From Azonexaceae bacterium (GTDB lineage Bacteria; Pseudomonadota; Gammaproteobacteria; Burkholderiales; Rhodocyclaceae): DNA of 64,000 nt. How positions within the stretch are numbered: the stretch's first letter is position 1; the number at the start of each line of letters is the position of its first letter. Below are positions 1,276 through 64,000 of the stretch, in pieces. The DNA lies in NCBI GenBank assembly GCA_013335535.1, contig JAAXVL010000002.1:372001-436000 (forward strand), in the 5' to 3' direction. The notes under the pieces were generated by a model, which saw nothing but the letters and a program-made list of their open reading frames with translations, made no database searches and had not been told where the DNA came from. The position numbers were made by a program, and so were the translations under genes.

Positions 1276-1572
1276 TTAGAGCGTGGCCCAGCGGGCCAGC
1301 GTGCCGCCGAAGAAGGCGGTGGCGATCAGGGCGAGCGGCGAAACGGCGATGAAGACCTTGAGCACGCGGGCAATGAACGGATGGGCGATGTGCGATTCGA
1401 TGAAGCAGCGGGCGACCAGCGCGCCCTTGATCCAGATGATGGCGGCGACCAGCAAGGGTAGCCAGTTGGCTGCCCGGAACCATTCGCTGAGGCCGAGGCT
1501 GGCCAGCGTCAGCGCGACCAGAACCAGCCATGCCACGGTCAACCGGGAAAAATGGTCATTTTTGCAATGCAT
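1276..1572 (-). CDS. NorF-like / cytochrome c oxidase subunit IV-type small membrane protein
   Basis: A 98-residue protein with three predicted membrane helices (about residues 13-31, 36-52 and 70-90), resembling the prokaryotic cytochrome oxidase subunit IV family (NorF-like). It starts 3 bases downstream of the stop of the subunit III-like gene, so the two form an operon. Such pairs assist assembly or activity of heme-copper oxidases or nitric oxide reductase, but no norCB or cox catalytic genes are in view. The first turn of helix 1 (FSRLTV, residues 8-13) is encoded by a copy of the dispersed motif at 1533-1562, so the N-terminus may have been modified by motif acquisition. Function is inferred from topology and its neighbour. 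Confidence 0.7.
   Translation of the reverse strand: MHCKNDHFSRLTVAWLVLVALTLASLGLSEWFRAANWLPLLVAAIIWIKGALVARCFIESHIAHPFIARVLKVFIAVSPLALIATAFFGGTLARWATL
1533..1562 (+). repeat. Dispersed tripartite motif, copy 1 (exact core)
   Basis: Exact core CCACGGTCAACC followed by A/T tracts at motif positions 16-20 and 26-31. It lies inside the norF-like coding sequence, where the opposite strand encodes FSRLTV. Confidence 0.85.
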
Positions 1573-1575
1573 CGC

Positions 1576-2178
1576 TCAGGCCAGAACGTAGAACAAGGGG
1601 AAAATGACGAGCCAGATGATGTCCGTGGCGTGCCAGTAGCAGGCCAGCGCTTCGAGGCCGGCGTAGTCCTCGGACGAATAGCCGCGGAAAGCCAGTCGGG
1701 CCAGCACCCACAGAATGCCGAGGATGCCCCAGGTAGCGTGCACCAGATGCGTGAAGGTCAGGTAATAGTAGACCGTGAAGAAAATGCCCGACTCGCCGTT
1801 GATGCCGTGCGCCAGGTTCCAGGTGATTTCCAGTCCCTTGGTCACCGGGTAGCCGAGGGCAATGACGAGGCCGGCGACCAGCCAGATGACGGCCGAGCGG
1901 TGTTTGTCCTGGCGGATGGCGTTGACCGAGCAGGCGATGAAATAACTGCTCGTGATCATGAGCAGCGTGATGGTCGTTCCGGCCAGTACCGACAAGCGCT
2001 GCGCCCCGGCGTGGAAAGCGTCGGGAAAATGGGCACGGGCGATGAAATAGACCGCGAAGAGTACGGCGAACTCGACAAACTCGCAGGTAATGCCGGCCCA
2101 GATACCCTTGTTGCCGGGAATGCGGTAGCGGCTTTCGGTAACGGGGGGCGGTTCGGCGAGGAGGGTGGCGGCGGTCAT
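1576..2178 (-). CDS. Heme-copper oxidase subunit III family protein (NorE-like)
   Basis: A membrane protein of about 200 residues with five predicted helices and the subunit III signatures CEFVEFAVLFAVYF, FTHLVHATWGI and a final YWHATDIIWLVIFPLFY. Subunit III-type proteins bind lipid and stabilise the catalytic subunit of heme-copper oxidases; NorE is the version near nitric oxide reductases. The length without the other oxidase subunits favours NorE-like. The chosen start is the ATG at 2178 (MTAATLLAE). A GTG at 2262 would add 28 residues rich in charged and polar positions; neither has a strong ribosome-binding site. It is followed after 3 bases by the NorF-like gene. Confidence 0.75.
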   Translation of the reverse strand: MTAATLLAEPPPVTESRYRIPGNKGIWAGITCEFVEFAVLFAVYFIARAHFPDAFHAGAQRLSVLAGTTITLLMITSSYFIACSVNAIRQDKHRSAVIWLVAGLVIALGYPVTKGLEITWNLAHGINGESGIFFTVYYYLTFTHLVHATWGILGILWVLARLAFRGYSSEDYAGLEALACYWHATDIIWLVIFPLFYVLA

Positions 2179-2317
2179 GGTCGGGGTGTCGGTGAACTCC
2201 CATTGTTCCGGGCGCCGGCCCAGCCAGCCTTGATGTCCATCAACGGCCTTGGGATACGACACGAAAAAAATACCCGGGCAAATTGCGTTGTATCAAGTTG
2301 CCACAAGAATGCCCTTT

Positions 2318-2323
2318 TATAAT
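2318..2323 (+). promoter_or_regulatory. Probable -10 box upstream of iorA
   Basis: A perfect TATAAT lies 35 bases upstream of the iorA ATG. No good -35 sits at 16-18 bases (TTGCCA is only 14 bases away), so an activator-dependent promoter is possible. Confidence 0.4.
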
Positions 2324-62679: not shown

Positions 62680-63269
62680 CATTCGACTCCCAGTAAAAGT
62701 GCATCGATCCCATCGCACAGACAGTGGATGGCGAGCAGGTGGGTTTCCTGAATTCGCGCCGTCCGGTCGGCCGGCACGCAGAGATGAATATCGTCGTCAC
62801 GCAGCATTTCGCCGATCAGCCCGCCGCCCTTGCCGGTCAGCGCGACGATGTGCATGTCGTGCTCGTGCGCCGACTTGATCGCTTCGATGACGTTGGCCGA
62901 GTTGCCCGAGGTCGAAATCGCCAGCAGCACGTCGCCGGCATGGCCGAGACCGCGCACCTGGCGCGAGAAAATCTGGCTGAACGAGTAATCGTTGGCCACC
63001 GCCGTGATGATCGAGGTGTCGGTGGTCAGCGCGATGGCCGCCAGCTCCTGCCGTTCGGCCTCGAAGCGACCGATCAGTTCGGCAGCGAAATGCTGGGCGT
63101 CGCCGGCCGAGCCGCCATTGCCGCAGGCCAGGATCTTGCCGCCGTTGATCAGGCAGTTGGTCATCGTTTCGATCGCCGCGGCAATCGGGGCTGCCATCAT
63201 TTCGACGGCATTCAGCTTGGTTTGGGCGCTGTCTTCGAAATGCTTGGCAACGCGGGCGATCAAATCCAT
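62679..63269 (-). CDS. SIS-domain phosphoheptose isomerase / DiaA-like protein
   Basis: A 196-residue SIS protein, about the length of both GmhA and DiaA. Signatures are GGKILACGNGGSAGDAQHFAAELIGRF, LTTDTSIITAVANDYSFSQIFSRQV and STSGNSANVIEA. GmhA makes D-glycero-D-manno-heptose 7-phosphate; DiaA promotes DnaA assembly at oriC. The active-site His/Glu of GmhA (HFAAELIGRFE and the late ETHLLAIHCLCDGID) are present, which favours isomerase activity, while the yraN/yraP neighbours favour DiaA. I leave the symbol open. Upstream TTG at 63278 is the alternative start. Confidence 0.85.
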   Translation of the reverse strand: MDLIARVAKHFEDSAQTKLNAVEMMAAPIAAAIETMTNCLINGGKILACGNGGSAGDAQHFAAELIGRFEAERQELAAIALTTDTSIITAVANDYSFSQIFSRQVRGLGHAGDVLLAISTSGNSANVIEAIKSAHEHDMHIVALTGKGGGLIGEMLRDDDIHLCVPADRTARIQETHLLAIHCLCDGIDALLLGVE

Positions 63270-63310
63270 ATCGTTCAATGAGTTGGGGCTATAAGTGAAA
63301 GCATTCTACC

Positions 63311-63676
63311 TCACAGCTCGACGAAGACTTCGAACGCCAGCCGTTGCCACGGATTTTTGTTGTCGCTCAGAGACGACACGCGGGCCATCAGCCGGTCGCC
63401 AGCGTCCATCGCGGCGGCCACGGCACGATTCTGGGCGCGCGGCACGTAGCCCAGCTTGTTGCCGTGCCATTCGACACGGATGGCGTTGCGGTCATGCTTG
63501 TTGTCCAGTTCGCGGACCAAGGTCAAGGTGTCGCCTAGCTTGATTTCCGACCAGAACGTTTCCATCGCGTAAAACTGGCTGCCGGCCAATGGAGAATTCT
63601 GGACCAGTATGCGAATGCTTTCGGCCTGGGCTGTCGTCAGCCATAGCACGAGGCTAATCGTCAGCAGAAAACGCAT
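63311..63676 (-). CDS. Exported stand-alone HIRAN-domain protein
   Basis: A 121-residue protein with a clear signal peptide (MRFLLTISLVLWLTTAQA) followed by a complete HIRAN domain (about 40-118): GSQFYAMETFWSEIKLGDTLTLVRELDNKHDRNAIRVEWHGNKLGYVPRAQNRAVAAAMDAG. HIRAN domains of HLTF-type helicases bind 3' DNA ends, but this copy is predicted periplasmic, so its ligand is unknown. It overlaps the yraN stop by 23 bases and precedes the SIS gene. Confidence 0.82.
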   Translation of the reverse strand: MRFLLTISLVLWLTTAQAESIRILVQNSPLAGSQFYAMETFWSEIKLGDTLTLVRELDNKHDRNAIRVEWHGNKLGYVPRAQNRAVAAAMDAGDRLMARVSSLSDNKNPWQRLAFEVFVEL

Positions 63677-64000
63677 TCTTGATCCATTCGAGCTGCTCGC
63701 CATTGATCAGCACGCAATCGAAACGGCAGTCGCAGTCGGGTTTGCCGAGCAGGTAGTGCTGGGCGGCGAGAACGATGCGGCGACGCTTGCTGGCCGTGAT
63801 GCTCGCTCCGGCGCCGCCGAAATCGCTGCGGCTGCGCTGGCGGACTTCGACGAAAACCAGCACCTTGCCGTCGCGGCAAATGAGGTCGATCTCGCCGCCG
63901 CGAATTCTGAAATTGCGCGAAATTACCCGTTGACCGTGCAATTCGAGATAACGCGCCGCCCGCGCTTCGGCTTCGCGGCCGCGCGTCGTGGTGGTATCGT
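63654..64000 (-). CDS. yraN: YraN/UPF0102 family endonuclease-like protein (5' end outside the window)
   Basis: The minus strand stays open from 63654 past the window end. The visible part has GREAEARAARYLELHGQ, then RVISRNFRIRGGEIDLICRDGKVLVFVEVRQRSRSDFGG, the YraN core with GEIDLI and FVEVR as the PD-(D/E)XK-like motif. The family is a predicted nuclease linked to replication and recombination. The start codon is not in the window; a TTG at 63941 lies inside the conserved domain and is not a real start. A diverged dispersed motif overlaps the segment LHGQRVISRNF. Confidence 0.85.
   Translation of the reverse strand, partial: DTTTTRGREAEARAARYLELHGQRVISRNFRIRGGEIDLICRDGKVLVFVEVRQRSRSDFGGAGASITASKRRRIVLAAQHYLLGKPDCDCRFDCVLINGEQLEWIKNAFSADD
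63910..63939 (-). repeat. Dispersed tripartite motif, copy 17 (diverged core)
   Basis: Core GCACGGTCAACG (10 of 12) with TAATTT at 15-20 and AATTTC at 26-31, inside yraN. Confidence 0.6.

Follow-up and report, generated by a model that had tools for sequence, protein, structure and literature searches.

A dispersed 39-bp repeat is described from a window of 64,000 bp (the whole stretch analysed: positions 372,001 to 436,000 of contig JAAXVL010000002.1, assembly GCA_013335535.1) of an Azonexaceae bacterium, whose genome of 4,246,987 bases in 72 contigs is labelled G000. The repeat is a genus-limited, dialect-forming word, born mainly by substitution, with the layout of an uptake signal sequence (USS). 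It is quite probably the DNA-uptake signal of naturally transformable bacteria of the Azonexus group, outside Pasteurellaceae and Neisseriaceae, and would be recognised on the surface of the cell as DNA is taken up.

The core, CCACGGTCAACC, occurs exactly 12 times in the window, with cores at 1533, 7334, 19276, 27180, 34460, 37974, 43379, 49141, 53038, 54045, 58998 and 59795, all as listed by the initial annotation of this DNA. The whole genome contains 453 exact cores (223 forward, 230 reverse); the reversed pattern, used as control, is found 0 times on either strand. Over-representation of the 12-mer is thereby extended from the window to the genome, and such strong over-representation with many exact copies is general among USS and DNA uptake sequences (DUS). 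DNA scanned first in full was 464 kb of G000, made up of the window and 400 kb of contig C1. Alignment of the 64 exact cores with full flanks in this DNA gives a motif of the form [A/T]T[G/T]-CCACGGTCAACC-GGAAA(A/T)(A/T)..GGCCAAAATTGAAAT, positions -2 to 36, beyond which information is near background. A/T tracts lie at positions 15–19 and 26–30, 11 bp apart and therefore on the same face of the helix, followed by GAAA at 32–35; this is the arrangement first seen in the window. A CGGT-N2-ACCG dyad is present in the core of 83% of these copies, those with G at position 13.

A weight matrix of the 39-bp motif was refined on the 464 kb, and a copy was defined by a score of at least 14. The matrix finds 113 copies, one per 4.1 kb, in agreement with the spacing of about 4 kb proposed earlier. 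In the reversed 464 kb, 0 copies reach 14 and 1 is found at thresholds of 8 to 12. Scores are two-peaked, with just 3 extra copies between 8 and 14. Cores are exact in 63 of the 113 copies and have one mismatch in 32. By extrapolation from 464 kb, the whole genome would contain about 1,000 copies. Within the window, 24 sites match the core with up to 2 mismatches, versus 6.2 expected from shuffles; the matrix accepts 16 of them, and the remaining 8 are about the number expected by chance. The matrix returns exactly the 17 copies proposed for the window, the five degenerate ones included (that with its core at 31169 has 3 core mismatches), 6 on the plus and 11 on the minus strand. Gene positions were taken from a home-made hexamer gene caller, run on 524 kb of G000, which under-calls foreign DNA. 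The copies, with matrix scores, are:

1530..1568, plus strand, exact core, at a gene edge, score 46.9
7331..7369, plus strand, exact core, intergenic, score 57.3
17349..17387, plus strand, 2 core mismatches, within a CoA-transferase gene, score 39.6
19252..19290, minus strand, exact core, at a gene edge, score 55.8
27177..27215, plus strand, exact core, within the TamB gene, score 42.7
28676..28714, minus strand, degenerate, within the TamB gene, score 30.4
29371..29409, minus strand, degenerate, within the TamB gene, score 40.4
31145..31183, minus strand, 3 core mismatches, within an Omp85-superfamily gene, score 49.9
34436..34474, minus strand, exact core, at a gene edge, score 58.9
37950..37988, minus strand, exact core, within a PDDEXK nuclease gene, score 45.2
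43355..43393, minus strand, exact core, within a UvrD-like helicase gene, score 45.3; another dialect occupies the site in G033
49117..49155, minus strand, exact core, intergenic according to the gene caller, adjoining uvrA, score 63.7
53035..53073, plus strand, exact core, intergenic, score 44.5
54021..54059, minus strand, exact core, intergenic, score 50.1
58995..59033, plus strand, exact core, intergenic, score 56.1
59771..59809, minus strand, exact core, intergenic according to the gene caller, overlapping an 842-aa open reading frame (ORF) without Pfam match, score 52.3
63904..63942, minus strand, 2 core mismatches, within a called gene, score 38.2; kept in G011 and G002

Copies lie both inside and between genes, as they had appeared to do in the window: genes contain 59 of the 117 in the 524 kb, intergenic DNA contains 48, and 10 are at gene edges. 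Intergenic positions are preferred. Over 380 contiguous kb of C1, intergenic DNA makes up 9.35% of positions and contains 41 of the 93 copies, a 4.7-fold enrichment (p 2e-18). Convergent gaps hold 15 copies in 22 gaps (10.0 kb), tandem gaps 34 in 132 (35.2 kb) and divergent gaps 8 in 44 (9.7 kb). In-gene copies are weaker, with an exact core in 23 of 59 versus 34 of 48 intergenic copies, and are biased in reading frame (24 of 35 same-strand copies share one frame). Two head-to-head pairs of the motif are present in 524 kb, both in C1; they fold as hairpins with 4-nt loops at -50.6 and -43.9 kcal/mol (z -9.6 and -6.2) and are predicted to be able to act as terminators, like inverted pairs of USS/DUS-like sequences.

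In the same 380 kb of C1, both strands are used (55 plus, 38 minus; p 0.10), and orientation blocks were not found (42 strand runs versus 46 expected, z -0.85). As to replichore polarity, raised earlier as a possible sign of a transposon or KOPS-like role, strands are mixed without blocks over the extent of those 380 kb. Spacing is even: the coefficient of variation (CV) is 0.67 versus a mean of 0.98 for random placement, and 0 of 20,000 simulations were as even. Copy number per 10-kb bin rises with GC content (Spearman 0.70, 50 bins), with a mean of 0.7 copies in the 7 bins below 58% GC and 2.5 in the other 43. The longest motif gap of the window, 7.3–17.3 kb, has 53.5% GC and contains, at 7433–9656, tRNA-Ala followed by a phage-type integrase (7650–8888) and an int-alpA RNA (9590–9656), which mark an integrated element.

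The origin of single copies was followed in orthologous stretches of relatives aligned to G000 at default and at generous gap-extension costs. At default costs, 116 relative-by-copy alignments span a motif (38 copies). With generous gap extension there are 122, for 38 copies and 21 relatives; one further pair is broken, though not by a clean insertion. By the G000 matrix the motif is present in the relative in 60 of the 122: 42 alignments are gap-free, 5 have compensating gaps, 7 have small changes and 6 have 12–45 extra bases in the relative. It is absent in 62, of which 22 align without gaps and 17 with gaps that compensate each other; 18 change in length by at most 8, 1 has 22 bases more and 4 lack 37–54 bases. 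Net length change is thus 0 at 39 of the 62 motif-less sites. CGGTCRAC is kept at 19 of the 62, and the dialect of another species may occupy the same site, as at 43355 and 37950 in G033 and at C1 366092 in G210, G010, G029 and G031. These alignments show that motif copies mostly arise and decay in place by substitution. USS of Haemophilus were judged not to be insertions by the same reasoning on protein alignments, according to PMC1626085.

The motif is restricted to the genus. Counts of the general pattern CGGTCRACN6WWN7WWW, broad enough for the dialects seen, in 76 genomes of the genus give 216–986 copies in 40, 48–138 in 9 and at most 39 in 27, with at most 17 per genome for the reversed pattern. 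Among 297 genomes of the family, the 12 of the genus hold 18–942 copies and the 285 of other genera at most 15. A narrower pattern, counted in 395 family genomes, gives 1–495 in 22 genomes of the genus and at most 4 in 373 others; the exact core is found 0–4 times in 24 genomes from other families of the order. These searches were built on the CGGTCRAC core, and an unrelated word or another core elsewhere would escape them. In viral contigs, 2 stretches carry a long form of the motif versus 0 for a scrambled form.

Dialects differ between species. The form is CCACGGTCAACC in G000, CYACGGTCAACS in G394, TGACGGTCAACC alongside CCACGGTCAACC in G011, CTACGGTCAACC in G373, CTGCGGTCGACG and similar forms in G033, YACGGTCGACC in G010 and G210, CTRCGGTCRAC in G339 and YGCGGTCGAC in G029; all except that of G000 are based on 20–83 kb of DNA per genome. 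The inner core CGGTCRAC, on which the searches relied, is constant in G000, G011, G033, G010, G210, G373, G339 and G029. When 10-mers are ranked without bias against reversed DNA, the dialect words come out first or close to first in G000, G010, G210, G394, G373 and G339 and lower in G011, G029 and G018; in G033, G423, G004 and G002 they are not among the top 16 10-mers listed. Motif-rich and motif-poor genomes are intermixed in trees of IspH (20 genomes) and IleS (13 genomes); the best trees need 5 and 4 changes, of which well-supported branches force just 1 and 2. Repeated gain or loss of the motif within the genus is suggested, and the mixture in these weakly supported trees fits repeated loss of the system. 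One sequence titled Gammaproteobacteria bacterium OSL_B.mb.10 (L147) is a close relative by IleS (95%) and IspH (93%), has 4 motif copies in 24 kb and is probably mislabelled.

A 2025 paper (PMC12616744) limits the known cases of sequence-guided uptake of self DNA to Neisseriaceae and Pasteurellaceae. The motif resembles the USS of Pasteurellaceae (Hin-type AAGTGCGGT, Apl-type ACAAGCGGT) in having a strong short core and, after it, two A/T segments spaced by roughly one helical turn; USS have two A/T-rich 3' segments about 12 bp apart, versus 11 bp here (positions 15–19 and 26–30). The A/T-rich ends are alike, Apl segment 3 being AAAATTTTGCAAAT in PMC1626085 and the corresponding end here AAAATTGAAAT. 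Coding and non-coding copies, substitution origin, dialects and hairpin pairs are shared with USS, and the G033 dialect has TGCGGT in common with the Hin core. The GCGG(T) core of USS is not that of G000, which is CCACGGTCAACC; GCGGT is present in some dialects (G033, G029) without the Hin or Apl 5' part. Unlike in USS, the core consists of CGGTCRAC extended on its 5' side, and the first tract starts 8 positions past the T of CGGT, not just 3' of the core. The host is betaproteobacterial, of the order Rhodocyclales (Azonexus, NCBI taxonomy) and not Pasteurellaceae. With the DUS of Neisseriaceae it shares a genome-wide word, dialects that follow species, hairpin pairs and a host with type IV pilus genes. 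DUS form eight dialects around a constant CTG core in the account of PMC3630211 and are no longer than about 13 bases, with no A/T tracts (PMC12616744, PMC3630211), whereas the motif here is 39 bp long, with tracts and no CTG core. The cognate DUS receptor is ComP; ComP_DUS matches here (36 of 40 genus genomes) are unrelated to motif content. Among the literature matches listed, with most subscription papers and all bioRxiv preprints outside coverage, there was no prior uptake-sequence report for Azonexus, Dechloromonas or Rhodocyclales; the portions available of the Dechloromonas aromatica genome paper (PMC2907700) make no mention of such a repeat. The letters of the motif occur in 4 papers, whose titles are unrelated.

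Putative parts of the uptake machinery occur in many genomes of the genus. The window itself contains a comEA homologue:

36646..37371, plus strand, comEA homologue of 241 aa, matching HHH_3 at 67.7 bits and TIGR00426 at 61.9 bits (cut-off 53.1)

The product has a signal-peptide-like start (judged by eye), a helix-hairpin-helix (HHH) domain and a Pro/Ala/Lys-rich tail; against TIGR01259 it scores 66.4 bits, under the cut-off of 152 of that model. ComEA-type HHH matches above the curated cut-off are found in 67 of the 76 genus genomes, and ComEC (PF03772) in 71 of the 76 and in all 51 of good quality. G394 and G423, both motif-rich and each a single contig, have one ComEC match in an open frame together with a ComEA-type match above the cut-off. 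All 8 genomes searched for type IV prepilins (N_methyl) have them. Pilins with a Pfam ComP_DUS match occur in 36 of 40 genomes of the genus and in none of 14 controls; in G000 the match is the pilE adjoining ispH. The neighbourhood of pilE was compared at 40 loci in 35 of these 36 genomes (G032 left out) and does not separate motif-rich from motif-poor genomes. At 22 of the 40 loci, the pilE, fimT, pilV, pilW, pilY1 operon is in one stretch with ispH. The minor-pilin operon with pilE (L164–L203) differs far more between species than the adjoining ispH and ileS, both in its sequence and in the order of its genes, with pilE either first or last.

Several observations weigh against an uptake function. 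No prepilin group is found in all five motif-rich genomes and none of the motif-poor ones (109 prepilins, 8 genomes, 5 rich and 3 poor, G015 partly sampled), and the sole rich-only group with more than one protein has two members, from G029 and G394. No receptor was found, as no prepilin group follows motif content. Motif-rich genomes are not separated from motif-poor ones by ComP_DUS matches (40 genus genomes), nor by FimT C-terminal ends, compared with a motif checked against the portions available of PMC8897410. ComEA-type matches over the cut-off are lacking in 9 of the 76 genomes, of which five are motif-rich (G339, a single contig, G014, G002, G464 and G457). ComEC is equally common in motif-rich and motif-poor genomes, and its presence does not track the motif. 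The density, one copy per 4.1 kb, is lower than that of USS and DUS, given as nearly 1 per kb in PMC1626085. In the window alone, intergenic enrichment is weak: 6 of 17 copies versus 17.7% of positions, 2.0-fold (p 0.065). All 4 of the 62 motif-less alignments that lack 37–54 bases in the relative are at one intergenic copy, 49117. In G000 itself, a 33.7-kb element interrupts comEC inside the Competence domain.

In that gene the first ORF ends at about C33:109611 and the rest starts at about 143300. The element between (G000 C33 109612–143300; loci L200 and L201) has 51.5% GC, carries at its left end a serine recombinase (Pfam domains Resolvase and Recombinase), and contains 0 motif copies at score 10 and 0 of the general pattern. 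It sits at the stretch ...MSI/SGLH..., which we take to be conserved. In G465, comEC is split at the same model position, with parts 32–33 kb apart. Because of the insertion, competence in the strain of the window is probably off or was recently lost, and the strain may be a recent non-transformer. Several Pasteurellaceae strains that retain dense USS are interpreted likewise in PMC1626085. A site-specific element of this kind, which would silence competence, is a separate lead. An apparent frameshift is present in comEC of G034 (motif-poor), and the gene is split over contigs in G007 and G018 (both motif-rich).

The interpretation as an uptake signal, offered in the initial annotation, gains in architecture and genomic behaviour: over-representation, substitution origin, even spacing, enrichment between genes and in convergent gaps, hairpin pairs, genus restriction, dialects and absence from the inserted element. 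It does not gain from ComEC, whose presence does not follow the motif and whose gene is interrupted in this strain. Uptake preference and binding by a receptor are inferred.

The strongest alternative is a site bound by a protein that organises or segregates the chromosome (nucleoid-associated, SlmA- or KOPS-like), with selection keeping the copies evenly spaced. The CV of 0.67, the use of both strands, the intergenic preference and the dyad in 83% of the 64 exact-core copies would suit it. Motifs of the type of FtsK-orienting polar sequences (KOPS) and architecture-imparting sequences (AIMS) are likewise dispersed in many copies; they are short and strand-polarised, while here strands are balanced (223/230 genome-wide) and no orientation blocks occur in 380 kb. 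Half of the copies are in genes (59 of 117), the motif is absent or reduced in 36 of 76 same-genus genomes, the 39-bp consensus is stronger than is usual for intracellular sites, and the change of dialect at the same site and the USS-like tracts would be left unexplained. Such a site is considered unlikely. A signal for self-recognition or recombination inside the cell, Chi-like or protecting from nucleases and not acting at uptake, would also account for the genome-wide spread and the scarcity in foreign DNA. Chi-like sites are short and strand-polarised, unlike a strand-balanced 39-bp site with USS-like A/T tracts, and this explanation is given very little credence.

Every alternative conflicts with at least one of the established facts. 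A large family of operators or transcription terminators would fit the strong hairpins of the two inverted pairs and the enrichment of convergent gaps, but there are just 2 such pairs in 524 kb and 59 of 117 copies are within genes. To our knowledge, no known regulon resembles a genus-limited series of dialects with about 1,000 copies per genome (extrapolated), and a family of this kind is highly improbable. Relics of a small mobile repeat, a 39-bp unit similar to a miniature inverted-repeat transposable element (MITE) or repetitive extragenic palindrome (REP), would explain the sharp edges at -2 and 36, the intergenic enrichment and the four relatives without 37–54 bases at copy 49117. At the other 37 aligned copies, however, no relative has lost 25 bases or more; length is unchanged at 39 of 62 motif-less sites, in-gene copies have a strong frame bias, species differ in dialect at the same site, and the comEC element has 0 copies. 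A shared longer unit had been named at the outset as a mark of transposon origin; a 39-bp unit does exist, but the alignments to relatives give no case of its clean insertion. Since alignments at both gap costs, made without a separate search for target duplications, show no clean empty site among 38 copies, with the single intergenic exception of 49117, mobile relics were rejected and are hardly credible at all.

Two further repeats are present in the window. One, dispersed, is at 58739–58963 and contains ACTTTCTTTTGCTTCGCCAAAAGAAAGTAGCC; in relatives it often occurs as adjacent inverted halves, and also at contig ends. About 700 bases around an OmpA-family ORF (33688–34403) recur in relatives: nearly complete copies are 87–91% identical, and shorter fragments lie at contig ends.

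As an uptake signal, the 39-bp word would be recognised by a surface receptor, and DNA of the own kind would preferentially be taken up. The CGGTCRAC core may be bound by a minor type IV pilin, the two A/T tracts may help to bend or melt DNA for entry, and ComEA and ComEC would bring the DNA in. Recombination of motif-bearing fragments would then spread the motif by molecular drive, and when receptor specificity shifts, sites would drift in place to a new dialect. It is likely that Azonexus evolved its own uptake watermark, independent of those of Haemophilus and Neisseria: 39 bp long, of Haemophilus layout, with about six species dialects around CGGTCRAC, and gone or weaker in roughly half the species. 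It would be the third such system, and an environmental one, with a receptor and a genomic vocabulary that evolve together and keep species apart.

Azonexus-group bacteria are mainly from wastewater and sediment. If the uptake signal is real, a third lineage would show that uptake words are not tied to animal hosts. The genus, with 76 sampled species, would provide an independent replicate of how uptake words originate, switch dialect and are lost, and would open the way to understanding how receptors read motifs with A/T tracts. The signal could also give a practical key for transforming strains of the Azonexus group.

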